Shown here: positions 1,405 through 64,000 of the stretch, in pieces
Numbering within the stretch: position 1 is the first letter of the stretch
How the letters are laid out: every line of letters begins with the position of its first letter
NCBI GenBank assembly: GCA_944326585.1
Contig: CALVEN010000002.1
Location: 186,001-250,000 of the forward strand
Direction: 5' to 3'
Length of the DNA: 64,000 nucleotides
Origin: Candidatus Gastranaerophilales bacterium
GTDB taxonomy: Bacteria > Cyanobacteriota > Vampirovibrionia > Gastranaerophilales > Gastranaerophilaceae
Position numbers and translations under genes: made by a program
The notes under the pieces: model-generated
The model's input: the letters and a program-made list of their open reading frames with translations, nothing else
What the model was told of the DNA's origin: nothing
The model's database searches: none

Positions 1405-2182
1405 GCACCCAATAGCATTTTTTGATTCCGGAGTCGGTGGATTAACGGTTTATGCAAAGTTAAAAAGACTTCTTCCGGACGAAAATTATATCTATTTCGG
1501 CGACACAAAACACATGCCCTACGGAGAAAAAACAAAAGAAGAATTGCTTGAATATGCCGACAAAATCTTTGATTTCTTCATAAAAAAAGATGCCAAAGCT
1601 GTTGTTATGGCATGTAATACAACATCTTCAGTCATTTATGACACAATAAAAAACAAATACCCTTTAAAAATTTATCCGATTATTCAATCCGCCGCAGGAA
1701 TAATTGCTAAATTACCGGTAAACAGAATAGGCGTTTTTGCAACACATGCAACCGTTAATTCAAACGTTTACAAAAACGAAATTCAAAAATATAACCCGAA
1801 TATGGAAGTTATCCAAATTGCCTGCCCCGAATGGGTTCGTATAGTTGAAGAAAACAAACTCAATGAGCCGCAAAGCATTATTCACGTAAAAGATAAACTC
1901 GACGAAATGCTTGAATTTAATCCTGAAAAAATAATTCTCGGCTGCACACATTATCCGTATTTGATTGATATATTAACAAAATTTGCTCCGGAAAGTTTGT
2001 TTATTGACCCGTCAGTACATTTTGCAAAATTTATAAAAGATGATCTGATAAAAAACAACTTAACCGAAAAATCCGACGGCACGGAAGAAATCTATGTCAG
2101 CTCGAATCCGGAAGCTTTCAGCATTTCTGCTGAAATGTTTTACGAAATAAAAAATACACCCGTCTTAAAGACTTTTGACTAA
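1382..2182 (+). CDS. murI: glutamate racemase with a non-AUG start
   Basis: MurI makes D-glutamate for peptidoglycan. Seen: the N-terminal AFFDSGVGG motif with the Asp-Ser pair, the first catalytic Cys in MACNTTSS and the second in LGCTHYP. No ATG, GTG or TTG lies between the in-frame stop at 1376 and ATG 1514, and ATG 1514 would remove the Asp-Ser motif. An AAGGAG Shine-Dalgarno at 1370-1375 sits 6 and 9 bases before ATT codons at 1382 and 1385; I take 1382. The length (about 266 aa) then fits the family. The start overlaps the amidase stop by 23 bases, a coupling that could favour a weak codon. The 3' end overlaps the convergent neighbour by 18 bases. Confidence 0.88.
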   Translation: MISKKINKHPIAFFDSGVGGLTVYAKLKRLLPDENYIYFGDTKHMPYGEKTKEELLEYADKIFDFFIKKDAKAVVMACNTTSSVIYDTIKNKYPLKIYPIIQSAAGIIAKLPVNRIGVFATHATVNSNVYKNEIQKYNPNMEVIQIACPEWVRIVEENKLNEPQSIIHVKDKLDEMLEFNPEKIILGCTHYPYLIDILTKFAPESLFIDPSVHFAKFIKDDLIKNNLTEKSDGTEEIYVSSNPEAFSISAEMFYEIKNTPVLKTFD

Positions 2183-3139
2183 ATCAAGACACTTTTCATA
2201 CGTTTCAACAACCGTAATTTTGTCTGATTTATGCAAATTTTCGTTTGTGACATTCAAAACCGTAGTATTTTCTTTAACCGCAAAAACAGGGATATTACGC
2301 TTAATTGCCTCATACACCGGAACAGATCCCAAAGCATCATAAGGCATTACAAGATAATCCAATTGAGATATATTAATATCACCGCCGATTAACGGAGCAT
2401 TTGAAAGTCCGAGCATAATACACGGCAAAAATGTCGGCGTAATATATTCAGAAGCCGCTTTCGGATTCACTATATCAGATGAAATTGAATAGTCTGCGAA
2501 AGCAGGCGAATGCGCGCAAGGGACTTTTAACTCTTTAGAAATATAATGCGACAAAATAGCTTCAACACCGCCCACGGGATCAGCACCTGAACCGTTTGCA
2601 TAATCAGGATTATCATCTTCCGGATCATCAAACATACAAACAAGCGCAATTGCATCCGCACCTTGTTCTAAAAGTTTTTTGGCGGATGATTTAAGCGTTT
2701 CAATATTTTTAACTTTTCCGACAGAGGTGCCGAAATCAGTCATGAAAAATTCCACCCCGACATCTTCCGTTGTAATCTCATACCCTGTTACATTAACACC
2801 GTAAACTGTTTTCACGGCATTTATAGTATTTATATGAACATTCAAAACATCTTTTGGGATACTTTTGTCAAAGACAATACCTATTTTATTATTTTTTGAA
2901 GGCTTCAAGTTGATTTCACCCTTAAAAAAACTGTTTAAGGAATAGCCTTCAACATAAAACATATTTTCCGTAATCCCTGAAAACCCGCCTGCATTAACAA
3001 CATTCGGATTAACAATAAGGCTTGAAACATCCGCGAATTTTCTTGCCCAAACACTTGCATCACCGGCATAACCGCCTATAGCCGCGCCGATTCCTGTAGG
3101 AACAATAAAAGCTCCGAATTTTTCACCTGTTTTTAACAT
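2165..3139 (-). CDS. DUF3326 family protein
   Basis: A 324-residue cytosolic-looking protein without signal peptide. The start FGAFIVPTGIGAAIGGYAG and the later GADAIALVCMFDDPEDD and GSGADPVGGVEA segments match my memory of DUF3326, a family conserved in cyanobacteria and plastid-bearing lineages with no settled function. Full length by eye. It supports a cyanobacteria-related origin for the window. The ATG has no Shine-Dalgarno; a TAAAAT box ends 6 bases upstream, so the mRNA may be leaderless. The tail overlaps murI tail-to-tail. Confidence 0.8.
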   Translation of the reverse strand: MLKTGEKFGAFIVPTGIGAAIGGYAGDASVWARKFADVSSLIVNPNVVNAGGFSGITENMFYVEGYSLNSFFKGEINLKPSKNNKIGIVFDKSIPKDVLNVHINTINAVKTVYGVNVTGYEITTEDVGVEFFMTDFGTSVGKVKNIETLKSSAKKLLEQGADAIALVCMFDDPEDDNPDYANGSGADPVGGVEAILSHYISKELKVPCAHSPAFADYSISSDIVNPKAASEYITPTFLPCIMLGLSNAPLIGGDINISQLDYLVMPYDALGSVPVYEAIKRNIPVFAVKENTTVLNVTNENLHKSDKITVVETYEKCLDLVKSL

Positions 3140-3158: not shown

Positions 3159-4027
3159 CTAAAACCATGGATAATAATCCTTAATTTCCCAACCGTCAAG
3201 AAATATCAAATAACCGCAAAACTGTGAACCACTGTCACCTTTACAATAATTCAGATAAACTTGTTTATTATTATCACTACCCTTTAAAAATTCAAATATT
3301 CTTTTTCTTAAATCAAATGTCATAAAAAATACATCTTTTCCGTACGTATTTGGTTTTGAAAATCCATTTATATCCACTTCAAAAATAATATTTCTATATT
3401 CAGTAGACACACAACTTCCGTCAGGATTTGTACCGCCTACGCAGCCGGATGTACCAATACCTACACTTATTAAAATATTATTTGACAATAAAATTCTGTA
3501 TTTAAAACTTCCCCTCCCAGGAACATAATTATTCGTTACAGGACTGTATGGACCGTCATAATTTACAGTTTTTTCTTGCTTATAACCAAAATCATTAGAT
3601 ACCTTCAAATACGGAATAAAATATTTTGCAGCAAATTTTGTTAATGCATCTTTGTGATTAAAATTAGTATCATCTGTAGAGGTACCGTAAATTCCTGCGA
3701 CATCCCAGGTTGTGGTGTCACCATGCTCTGCCTGCGCCATTGTTAATGCCTGCGAGATTATTGAATAAGCTTGTTTTAATTTTGATGCCGTCTGCTTTTT
3801 CTGATAATTCGCTATAAGCGTCGGGATTGTCATAGCCGCCACAATGCCGATTATGACAAGGGTTATCAAAACTTCCGCCAAGGTAAAAGCGGCTTTCTTT
3901 TTAAAGTCGTTAAGACGATAAGACTTTAGGACGTTAAGTTCTTTACTGTGAGCTTCGCTTAAGTCTTTGTCCTGTCTACTTAGGAGAGTCGCCCCCCCCC
4001 GAAGTACTCTTTTTTCATATTTTTCAT
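3159..4027 (-). CDS. type IV pilin-like (prepilin) protein, frame broken at a G9 tract
   Basis: The body (from 3890 down) has the class III-like signal AA|FTLAEVLITLVIIGIVAAM, with Glu at +5 and a long hydrophobic helix, then a variable about 220-residue pseudopilin domain rich in Cys and Gly. In this frame the only start after the G tract is a TTG inside FTLAEV, which cannot be the real start. Good starts with AAGGAG lie at ATG 4027 and 4018, but they are out of frame: with nine Gs (3992-4000) they read MKNMKKEYFGGGRLS and stop. With ten Gs the frame runs GGGATL..RQDK..LSEAHSK into FTLAEV. So the copy sequenced is OFF or depends on slippage. A second pilin at 40046-41325 has the same design. 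Confidence 0.72.
3992..4000 (-). repeat. G9 homopolymer in pilin 5' coding region
   Basis: Nine consecutive Gs on the coding strand, 27 bases after ATG 4027, in an AT-rich neighbourhood. One extra G joins the start codon frame to the pilin body. Flanking bases downstream (CGACTCTCC...GACAGGACAA) recur after the G10 tract at 41293-41302. Confidence 0.9.
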
Positions 4028-4052
4028 TGGCTTTCTCCTTCTTTCTGGGTTT

Positions 4053-4081
4053 ATTATATCAGGAATTTTAATTTTGGGCAA
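4053..4081 (-). promoter_or_regulatory. sigma-70-type promoter of pilin gene
   Basis: TTGCCC (4076-4081), 17-base spacer, TATAAT (4053-4058), then AGAAGGAGAAAG and ATG 4027. The -10/Shine-Dalgarno region resembles that of the second pilin (TATAAT at 41353-41358). Confidence 0.6.
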
Positions 4082-4123: not shown

Positions 4124-4516
4124 TTATTGACCGGCACCGCCGTATGAAAAATCGCCCTTAATATTAGATTGTAACAACTTCGTCCAGCTGTTTTCAAATG
4201 ATGTAATTTCATTTAACTGAGTTTCAAGATTATTCTTTTCAAGCTCAAGTTCAGATTCCCAGGCTTCCAAACTTGCAAGCTCAAACTCATGATCATTTTC
4301 GAATTGTTCAATAATGACCATATATTCATCAGTACCGTAACCGTAATCCGGATCATAATATACGGCCTGCAATTTCTCGTTATATTGTTGCTGTAAATCA
4401 GCCGTTTTTCTGGATGCTGATACCATATTAAACATGACACCTGACAATTCCTCGTTAATCGCTGATTTTTGCTTTGTGTACATTAACAATGTTTCATGAA
4501 TGTTTGAAATAGCCAT
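4124..4516 (-). CDS. lineage-specific coiled-coil protein, 130 aa
   Basis: No family recognised. The protein is acidic and mostly helical, with predicted coiled-coil stretches (residues about 18-50 and 75-115) around a Tyr/Asp-rich centre (YYDPDYGYGTDEY) and a short glycine-rich tail. No signal peptide or membrane segment. The start is fixed by ATG 4516 with a purine-rich AAGAAGAGG upstream. A promoter-like motif at 4547-4575 is shared with the genes starting at 13932 and 15035, so the three may be one regulon. Structural or secreted-substrate roles are possible but not shown. Confidence 0.7.
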   Translation of the reverse strand: MAISNIHETLLMYTKQKSAINEELSGVMFNMVSASRKTADLQQQYNEKLQAVYYDPDYGYGTDEYMVIIEQFENDHEFELASLEAWESELELEKNNLETQLNEITSFENSWTKLLQSNIKGDFSYGGAGQ

Positions 4517-4681: not shown

Positions 4682-5296
4682 ATGGATCAAGAAACTTATT
4701 TTAAAATTATGGGCTATGTCCCGACGGTTATAGAAGCATCATCAAGAGGCGAACGTTCCTTTGATATTTTTTCAAGACTTTTAAGAGAAAGAATTATCTT
4801 TTTAGGTACGGAAATTGATGATGAAGTAGCGAATTCAGTAGTTGCGCAATTATTATTACTTGACAGTGAAAATCCTGAAAAGGATATCATGCTTTACATA
4901 AACAGCCCCGGCGGTGTCATAACTGCAGGGATGGCTATTTATGACACAATGCAATTAATAAAAGCGGATGTATCGACCATATGTCTGGGCGATGCAGCAT
5001 CAATGGGAGCATTTTTATTGTGTTCCGGTGCAAAAGGCAAAAGAATGGCTCTGCCGAATTCAAGAGTGATGATTCACCAGCCTTTAGGCGGCGCAAAAGG
5101 TCAGGCAACCGATATTGAAATTGAAGCCAAAGAAATTTTAAGAATGAAAGATATGTTAATAAGTATTATGGCGGAAAATTCCGGTCAGCCTTATGATAAA
5201 GTTAAAGAAGACTGCGAACGCGATCACTTCTTAACAGCACAAGAAGCGCTTGAATACGGACTTATTGATAAAGTCATAACTAAATCAGAAAAATAG
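4682..5296 (+). CDS. clpP: ATP-dependent Clp protease proteolytic subunit
   Basis: Serine peptidase of family S14, which forms the tetradecameric chamber that degrades proteins fed by ClpX or ClpA/C. Catalytic triad visible: Ser107 in GDAASMGAF, His132 in MIHQPLGGA, Asp181 in ERDHFLTA. 204 aa is the usual length. ATG 4682 follows AGGAG by 6 bases and a TATAAT box lies near 4653. It appears to be a single-gene unit ended by the hairpin at 5329. No clpX or tig is adjacent. Confidence 0.96.
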
Positions 5297-40045: not shown

Positions 40046-41325
40046 TTACTTTTCAGTCAAATATTTATAACTGCAGCATGCTCCGGAAAGTTGTGTTCCT
40101 GTCAACAAATCGCCTGAGCCTAAAAATCCTTGCGCCTTTTCTATACCATATTCTTTACCGCATCCACAAGTTTCACCGTTAACATTTTTATTAAATGTTC
40201 CGTCTGCCCCGATTGGTCTTATCCAATTTTCATTCAGCATAATGGCAAACATATCCCGCCCTACTACATTCGGTCCTTTTTGAAAACCGTTTACATCTAC
40301 CGAAATCATAGGTGCACCATGCCCGCCAAAATATATTACGGAACCGTCTTGCAATAAGATTGCTTTTTTAGATAAATCCCAGCCCGAATATAAACCGTTA
40401 AGCTGCGCATTATTACAATATGTTGAAGCCGTCGGTAAATTTTTAAACGTACCGGAAATTAAAGATCCGTAAAAGCTGTATGCAGCAGCTCCACCGCAAA
40501 GCCCATTCCACTTGTCTAAATAATTATTACAATATGCACTCTCACCATATTGAGGAAATCCGCAGGTATCTATCACTTTGAAATGTTTTATCATAGCATT
40601 GACAAATTCCGGTGACATAGTAGTTTTCTCTGCATAAAGCCCGTCATCAGGATATCTGCACTTTGCAGGCGCATTATAATCACCTGAATTGTTTACGCAC
40701 AAACTATAATTATCAAGCTTTACGGCAGTGTATACCTGACTAATTTCCGAAAATTTCTTTTTCCATATTGCCTTATTCTGCATATCACTAATTTTTTGAG
40801 ATAAAGTAGGAATTGTCATGGCTGCTACAATGCCGATTATGCCGATGGTTATCAAAACCTCTGCTAAGGTAAACGCGGCACGTTTTGCGTGAGTAGAGTG
40901 ATTAAAGTGAGGTGTGTGTTTTCTGTGAGCTTCACTCAAGGGGCTTACCCCCACCACGGCGGGGTTGAATTTCAACACGAGCTTGCGAGTGTTTGAAATT
41001 CGGGGGCGGGGTTGCATCTTTTGAGATCCTTCGGCTATCGCCTCAGGATGACATAGAAAATTCCACAAGTGCCCGGTGTGTTGTCGTGCCTCAGGCACCT
41101 CAGGATGACAAGACACCCTTTGAACACTGCTATGTAGGTCGGGTTTGCTAACCCGACTGTTAATTCTTCTGTCGGCATAGTAATGCCGACCTACCTTTCT
41201 GTTACCTCTTAGTGCCTTAGGGCCATAGTATCTTAGTAACTTTACACAACCAGTACCGCCAAAACCCTTGTCCTGTCTATCTGGGAGAGTCGCCCCCCCC
41301 CCAGTAATACTACTTGTTTACCCAT
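40046..41325 (-). CDS. type IV pilin-like protein with very long leader, frame broken at a G10 tract
   Basis: The body has KRAA|FTLAEVLITIGIIGIVAAM and a variable C-terminal domain with paired Cys. ATG 41325 follows AGAAGGAGAAACGCTT, the same type of site as the first pilin. After ten Gs (41293-41302) the ATG frame stops shortly; with eleven Gs it continues GGGATL..RQDK ... LSEAHRK ... into FTLAEV, matching the leader peptide of the first pilin. The leader would be about 147 aa and contains translated dispersed repeats (SCHPEVPEARQ, LCHPEAIAEG). A GTG at 41116 lacks a ribosome site. So the gene is OFF, decayed, or read by slippage. Confidence 0.68.
41026..41195. repeat. cluster of dispersed palindromic repeats inside the pilin leader
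   Basis: Two copies of the CTCAGGATGACA type (41026-41053, 41089-41108), and a compound palindrome (41131-41195) with arms GTCGGGTTTGCTAACCCGAC and GTCGGCATAGTAATGCCGAC. All stay open in the pilin frame. Confidence 0.65.
41293..41302 (-). repeat. G10 homopolymer in pilin 5' coding region
   Basis: Ten Gs on the coding strand, 23 bases after ATG 41325. One extra G restores the frame. The same downstream context follows as at 3992-4000. Confidence 0.9.
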
Positions 41326-63197: not shown

Positions 63198-64000
63198 ATG
63201 TTAAAAACAGCTAAATGCAGCGGCTGCGGAGCTTGCTATAATATTTGTCCGCAACATGCTATTAAAATGAAAGAAGATATTTATGGATTTAAATATCCGT
63301 CTATTGATAAAACTTCGTGTACGGATTGCGGTCTTTGTGAAAAAATATGTAATACAAATGATTTTAATAACATAAAAAATCCTGCCTGTTATGCTTTTAT
63401 GGCAGATGACAAGACAAGGTCAAAAAGCGCTTCCGGCGGCGTATTCCCCAGTCTAGCCAATTATTTCATTAACAATGGCGGCTATGTCTGCGGTGCCGTA
63501 TGGGATAAAGAGTTGAATGATAAGCAGGAGGGGGGGGCACCATCAAAGCTTTCTAAAGACTGGAGCGTTAAACATATAGTATCAAACCGTCCGGATGATA
63601 TTGAAAAAATGAGAAGTTCAAAATATCTTCAAAGTAATACGGGTAATTGTTATAAGGAGATTAAATCTTTACTGGATAAAAATATAAAGGTTCTTTTTAC
63701 AGGTACTCCGTGTCAGGTAAACGGTTTAAAATCATTTTTACGAAAAGATTATGCTAATTTGTATTGTGTTGATTTAATATGTCATGGTGTACCTTCAGCC
63801 GGGATGTTTAAAAAATATCTGGCTGAAAATTTTAAGAATGTTGAATATATAAATTTCAGAGAAAAAAGTCGTACAGGCTGGGGATTGGATTTCAAAATAA
63901 AAGAAAATAATAAAGTCAGGTATTTGGAAAATTCTGAATATTATAAAATGTTTCTGAACGATGTTATGTTTAGAGAATCATGCTACAGCTGTGAATATAA
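63198..64000 (+). CDS. CoF420 hydrogenase/dehydrogenase beta-subunit family protein, 3' partial
   Basis: Runs off the right edge. Two 4Fe-4S motifs near the start (CSGCGACYNICP, CTDCGLCEKIC), then the beta-subunit domain: SGGVFPSLANYF, MRSSKYLQSNTG, VLFTGTPCQVNGLKSFLRK and CVDLICHGVPSAG. Relatives often sit in polysaccharide loci beside pyruvyl transferases. A G8 tract at 63530-63537 lies in frame, inside about 15 residues (LNDKQEGGAPSKLSK) that the family usually lacks. GAGGGTTATA precedes ATG 63198. Confidence 0.88.
   Translation, partial: MLKTAKCSGCGACYNICPQHAIKMKEDIYGFKYPSIDKTSCTDCGLCEKICNTNDFNNIKNPACYAFMADDKTRSKSASGGVFPSLANYFINNGGYVCGAVWDKELNDKQEGGAPSKLSKDWSVKHIVSNRPDDIEKMRSSKYLQSNTGNCYKEIKSLLDKNIKVLFTGTPCQVNGLKSFLRKDYANLYCVDLICHGVPSAGMFKKYLAENFKNVEYINFREKSRTGWGLDFKIKENNKVRYLENSEYYKMFLNDVMFRESCYSCEY
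63530..63537 (+). repeat. G8 homopolymer inside the CoF420-hydrogenase-like gene
   Basis: Eight Gs encoding E-G-G-A, in frame. A gain or loss of one G would truncate the protein early. Confidence 0.85.

Follow-up and report, generated by a model that had tools for sequence, protein, structure and literature searches.

Out-of-frame G/C tracts between start codon and pilin body in a Candidatus Gastranaerophilales genome: candidate contingency switches in type IV prepilin genes

A G9 tract upstream of a prepilin frame

The window analysed here, a 64-kb stretch of DNA from a Candidatus Gastranaerophilales bacterium, carries a pilin gene on the minus strand between genes for a DUF3326 protein (2165..3139, minus strand) and a 130-aa protein (4124..4516, minus strand; no match in a Pfam search), beyond which lies a gene for a ClpP protease (4682..5296, plus strand). 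The pilin body (3159..3887, minus strand) carries the N-terminal methylation motif FTLAEVLIT and matches PF07963 above the cut-off (E 1.7e-6; 27.8 bits, cut-off 21.2), in agreement with the pilin call of the initial annotation. Judged by this methylation/cleavage motif, the product is a type IV prepilin-like protein, and its assembly into a pilus or pseudopilus is predicted.

Upstream of this body, a run of nine Gs on the coding strand (C9 on the plus strand, 3992..4000) begins 27 nt past an ATG at 4027, which is itself preceded at a distance of 7 nt by a Shine-Dalgarno-like AAGGAG (4035..4040, minus strand); a further ATG lies at 4018. The order on the coding strand is AAGGAG-N7-ATG(4027)...ATG(4018)...TTC-G9-CGACTCTCCTAAGTAG... 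With nine Gs, the short frame at 3980..4027 (minus strand) reads MKNMKKEYFGGGRLS and then meets a stop. With one more base the frames join: ten Gs, or seven, bring both ATGs into the pilin frame, which passes through a 35-codon leader and then FTLAEVLITLVIIGIVAAMTIPTLI before ending at 3159. The leader (3888..3991, minus strand), beginning with CGACTCTCCTAAGTAG, is open in the pilin frame only, the two other frames being closed by TAA and TAG directly 3' of the tract. From the tract to FTLAEV, the pilin frame holds no ATG, GTG or TTG save the TTG inside the motif itself. The length of the tract thus sets whether an otherwise intact pilin gene is in frame. The arrangement proposed in the initial annotation (a G9 tract between start codon and pilin body, a short product at nine Gs, joining to FTLAEVLIT at ten, and no other usable start in the pilin frame) proved correct. 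The G run and the pyrimidines that follow it in G9-CGA-CUCYYC (3992..4000 and homologues) could also fold into a predicted hairpin with a GNRA-like loop.

A second tract-bearing pilin is located on the minus strand at 40046..41325. Its start ATG region (41303..41325), with AAGGAG upstream, is followed by a G10 tract (41293..41302) and by the leader and pilin body (40046..41292); the ON length would be 11, so that the tract is again one base short. The closest orthologue of this pilin, L137 of G012, has a G8 tract. G/C runs of at least seven bases in the window comprise one G8, one C9 and one C10, with none of length 7, and eight-base G/C matches number 6 against 0.14 expected from dinucleotide shuffles. 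The G8 run (63530..63537, plus strand) lies inside an open 4Fe-4S/F420-hydrogenase-like frame (63198..63998, continuing past the window end) and is in frame as assembled; it is possibly a contingency tract of a non-pilin gene.

Tract-bearing pilins across the genome and the lineage

In the whole genome (1.70 Mb, 35% GC), 43 separate G/C tracts of at least nine bases were counted, against 0.5-1.0 expected from composition, and all the long homopolymer tracts counted here are G/C. That nine Gs are unlikely by chance, as had been claimed for the single tract, is borne out both by the window shuffles and by the genomic excess. The tract neighbourhoods were read one by one, and 35 of the 43 tracts were found to sit between a start codon preceded by a Shine-Dalgarno sequence and a pilin frame open back to the tract. 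Most tract loci of the genome share a homologous leader start, CGACTCYYCYARR, while C tracts occur at four loci (L010, L013, L017, L031) with a related DNA word on the other strand. The genome encodes 64 pilin N-termini; many of those lacking a tract have ordinary short leaders (e.g. MKKAFTLAEV), and the tract-bearing pre-sequences are very long, reaching about 190 codons. With approximately 35 tract pilins, usually one base out of frame, the genome has many candidates for surface proteins that are switched on and off.

Leaders in G000 (e.g. L001, L016, L034, L039) are partly made of dispersed genome repeats, such as GTCATCCTGAGGCGAAGCCGAAGGATC and CCCTAACCCTCCC, which remain open in the pilin frame and were apparently taken up as coding spacer. 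Also in G000, a G9 tract at L049:1631 (C8:8630) has no pilin downstream. MutS1 and MutL are intact, which rules out hypermutability through loss of mismatch repair and suggests that the mutation rate may be modest.

The same tract architecture is present in 11 further genome assemblies of the genus, with identical or different tract families, and in the wider family within Gastranaerophilales, where the tract families differ and lengths range from 9 to 20. Nearly every genome of the family is rich in long G tracts, which the order's other families almost entirely lack. Records sharing the leader come from metagenome-assembled Candidatus Gastranaerophilales or from uncultured bacteria, and a search of viral contigs found none that carries it. 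In literature searches excluding subscription journals, and in broader ones, no paper joining Gastranaerophilales or Melainabacteria with phase variation was found.

Frame phase, tract length and coding constraint

Across the genus, we considered 178 loci combining an open pilin frame with a tract of at least eight bases. One additional base is needed for joining at 139 of them and one fewer at 21, and only 18 are in frame, a share that differs from one third with p = 7e-13, to be read descriptively since the loci are related. In the CGACTC family, where ON would be 10, 77 of 91 tracts are G9 and 11 are G10; the C family has C9, out of frame, in 17 of 19 cases; and in other families the usual length, 10 or 12, likewise leaves the pilin out of frame. 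Nearly every family is therefore OFF by one at its consensus length, be that 9, 10 or 12. Of eight loci with a short or interrupted tract, on the other hand, five are in frame (p = 0.0008 against the 18/178 of long tracts). At L306 (GGGGGGGGAG), for instance, an A breaks a ten-base tract and the leader reads in frame as GGGATLLSRQDKG, and the short C7 tract of L316 is in frame as well; out-of-frame relatives with short tracts are L335 and L337 (7 bases) and L163 (G6). For some families (the CAG type, L007, L224) two ATGs that differ in frame leave the choice of start codon ambiguous.

Lengths differ among paralogues of G021 that show only 0-4 differences in 70 flanking bases: these have 10, 12 or 13 Gs, so that one near-identical family includes both OFF phases, minus-one (G10, G13) and plus-one (G12). 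Between close orthologues, compared with one genome per species, the length is kept in 9 of 10 pairs, two of which are in-frame G10 pairs.

The gene order DUF3326, pilin, 130-aa protein, clpP is found again in G012 (L136), G011 (L110/L058), G021 (L273) and G008 (L154/L158), either complete or, where a contig or locus ends, in part; in G007 (L299) the slot was recognised from its DUF3326 side. The flanking proteins of this slot are approximately 75-98% identical across species, whereas the pilins are only 34-76% identical, the 76% value covering just 29 residues. Flanks and tract are conserved while the pilins diverge: the architecture stays as the pilin turns over. The initial annotation would have regarded phase variation as refuted by one invariant length in reads and related genomes, an outcome that the genomes show in part. 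Lengths vary between paralogues and in other tract families, but at the orthologous slot the tract has nine bases (G9, or C9 in G007) in the same minus-one phase in all six species.

Stop codons are absent from the pilin frame of 160 leaders of at least 20 codons (12,781 codons in total), whereas the two other frames contain 1008 and 1398; loci not selected for openness divide into 178 open and 7 broken ones. Pilins that are OFF in both species of an orthologue pair have a dN/dS of 0.22 (eight pairs, 1946 codons), and the leaders are weakly constrained (about 0.69), as expected of a removable spacer. Open leaders, together with the low dN/dS of OFF pilins, indicate that the joined protein is real, and pseudogene decay is ruled out by the same observations.

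Slipped-strand switching and its alternatives

The tract in this type IV prepilin's pre-sequence is probably a slipped-strand contingency switch, of which the genome would contain about 35. As in a simple contingency locus, a pure repeat (G9) lies in a reading frame past its ATG. DNA polymerase slippage during replication would alter the tract by one base. At the usual length (nine here) the pilin would be OFF, with translation ending just past the tract; addition of one base would give MKNMKKEYFGGGATLLSRQDK...KKAAFTLAEVLIT, a long-leader prepilin, and removal of the leader by prepilin peptidase would keep the mature pilin unaltered by tract and leader. Most loci being OFF and a few ON, any one cell would carry only a small part of the pilin set on its surface, and this selection could change. 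Replication slippage fits the restriction of the runs to G/C although the genome is AT-rich, the length and variability of the tracts in related genera, and the G021 paralogues in which the same flanks enclose 10, 12 or 13 Gs in both OFF phases. G/C runs are known to slip in replication in Campylobacter and Neisseria, and the meningococcus phase-varies poly-G tracts with mismatch repair intact; C. jejuni tracts of 8-9 tend to gain a base and those of 10-11 to lose one, so that toggling between 9 and 10 comes naturally (PMC4085013). Speaking against a simple random switch are the 139:21 excess of minus-one over plus-one phase, which it does not predict, the conserved length at the slot and between close orthologues, and the intact MutS1 and MutL. 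The phase-variation reading of the initial annotation is the best supported one and its frame logic was right, although the phenomenon extends far beyond one gene and the switching itself is an inference.

The same three features (the conserved slot length, the minus-one excess and the intact repair genes) keep alive, as an unlikely but serious competitor, programmed frameshifting, in which the G9 or C9 would be a fixed recoding site where RNA polymerase adds a base or the ribosome shifts by -1 in a fraction of events, the DNA remaining unchanged and every cell making every tract pilin at a low level. Genome-wide, some 30 pilin genes per genome would each be kept out of frame by exactly one base at a G/C run, with weak expression of all of them through slippage in transcription or translation on the homopolymer, a scheme to which we give an equally low weight. 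It would account for the minus-one phase at 139 of 178 loci and at runs as varied as G9, C9, G10 (G006; genus g22) and C8 (L320, from sequence), for the retention of length 9 at the slot in six species, and for purifying selection on OFF pilins. However, A/T runs would have been readily at hand in an AT-rich genome, slippery codons rich in G or C make poor sites for -1 ribosomal frameshifting, and a single near-identical paralogue family has both minus-one and plus-one members. A ribosomal site would also permit short minus-one tracts, yet these are rare (L163, L320). In bacteria, moreover, transcriptional insertions have been found in A/T runs only and not in G/C runs (E. coli, Buchnera; PMC5574713), and the run here is G/C; RNA polymerase slippage on G9, which the initial annotation gave as the alternative, survives as part of this explanation but is for that reason less likely than was implied.

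The remaining alternatives carry less weight. The OFF pilins might form a silent archive of gene-conversion donors for a few expressed pilins, the tract merely silencing the donors. The many paralogues with homologous leaders, and the syntenic slot that carries a different pilin body in each species between well-conserved flanks, would suit such an archive, but the Shine-Dalgarno sequence, ATG and open leader found at each locus would be superfluous in a silent donor, dN/dS is low, and we regard the archive as improbable. Most of the genomes considered are metagenome consensus assemblies, so that a homopolymer-calling artefact, with a true length of 10 and ordinary pilin genes, deserves mention; yet different assemblies and assemblers agree on 9, the same genomes have calls of 10, 11, 12 and 13 at other places, and out-of-frame calls extend to families in which 9 or 11 is the in-frame length, which makes this very unlikely. 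Hardly credible, finally, is a start of translation elsewhere that would render the tract irrelevant. A mechanical ORF caller does list the first TTG in the motif, but initiation at a TTG inside FTLAEV would remove the cleavage site, the leaders would not remain stop-free in one frame across 12,781 codons, and the in-frame relatives (L306, the G10 loci) read through from the same Shine-Dalgarno sequence and ATG.

Comparable contingency systems are known from other bacteria. Campylobacter jejuni, which is without MutS and MutL, is likewise an AT-rich host with dozens of G/C tracts of about 9-10 bases within reading frames, a frame set by tract length, and surface functions at its loci. Unlike in C. 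jejuni, the tracts here concern a single gene class (prepilins), have homologous leaders and always lie in a removable pre-sequence, the consensus is mostly OFF, MutS and MutL are present, and switching is deduced from sequence. For strain NCTC11168, 29 poly-G/poly-C contingency loci are given (PMC4965091). Neisseria (pilC, hmbR/hpuAB) also uses a G tract for switching a pilus-related or surface protein in the presence of mismatch repair, with a mean tract near 9 for its phase-variable poly-G (PMC4085013). The pilins of the present genome resemble type IV prepilins and pseudopilins (PF07963) in their N-terminal methylation motif and mature part of about 240 aa, and depart from the usual prepilins in their long tract-containing pre-sequences, which coexist with short-leader pilins (MKKAFTLAEV). 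The major pilin of Neisseria owes its variation to recombination, and it is PilC that carries the tract there, whereas here the pilins themselves bear the tracts, by the dozen. Genes with programmed transcriptional slippage would be similar in that homopolymer slippage rescues an out-of-frame gene, if that happens here; to our knowledge, the known cases use A/T runs, in contrast to the exclusive G/C runs of this genome.

G/C-tract phase variation is known mainly from proteobacterial pathogens. If it (or a frameshifting look-alike) operates on dozens of pilins, a commensal lineage of non-photosynthetic gut relatives of cyanobacteria would diversify its pilus surface combinatorially, and gating by the tract would explain why automated annotation truncates or misses these pilin genes.

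Two genomes of other genera were read as well. In G037 (L164-L182), the longer open frame downstream of about a dozen copies of ...ACAAAC/ACAAGY-G10-TAAACCGCTCA contains no pilin motif, and nearly all copies are G10, one base short of that frame. G032 (1.8 Mb), from another genus of the family, has 115 G tracts of at least nine bases, and the three that were read (L184, L194, L204) precede pilins.
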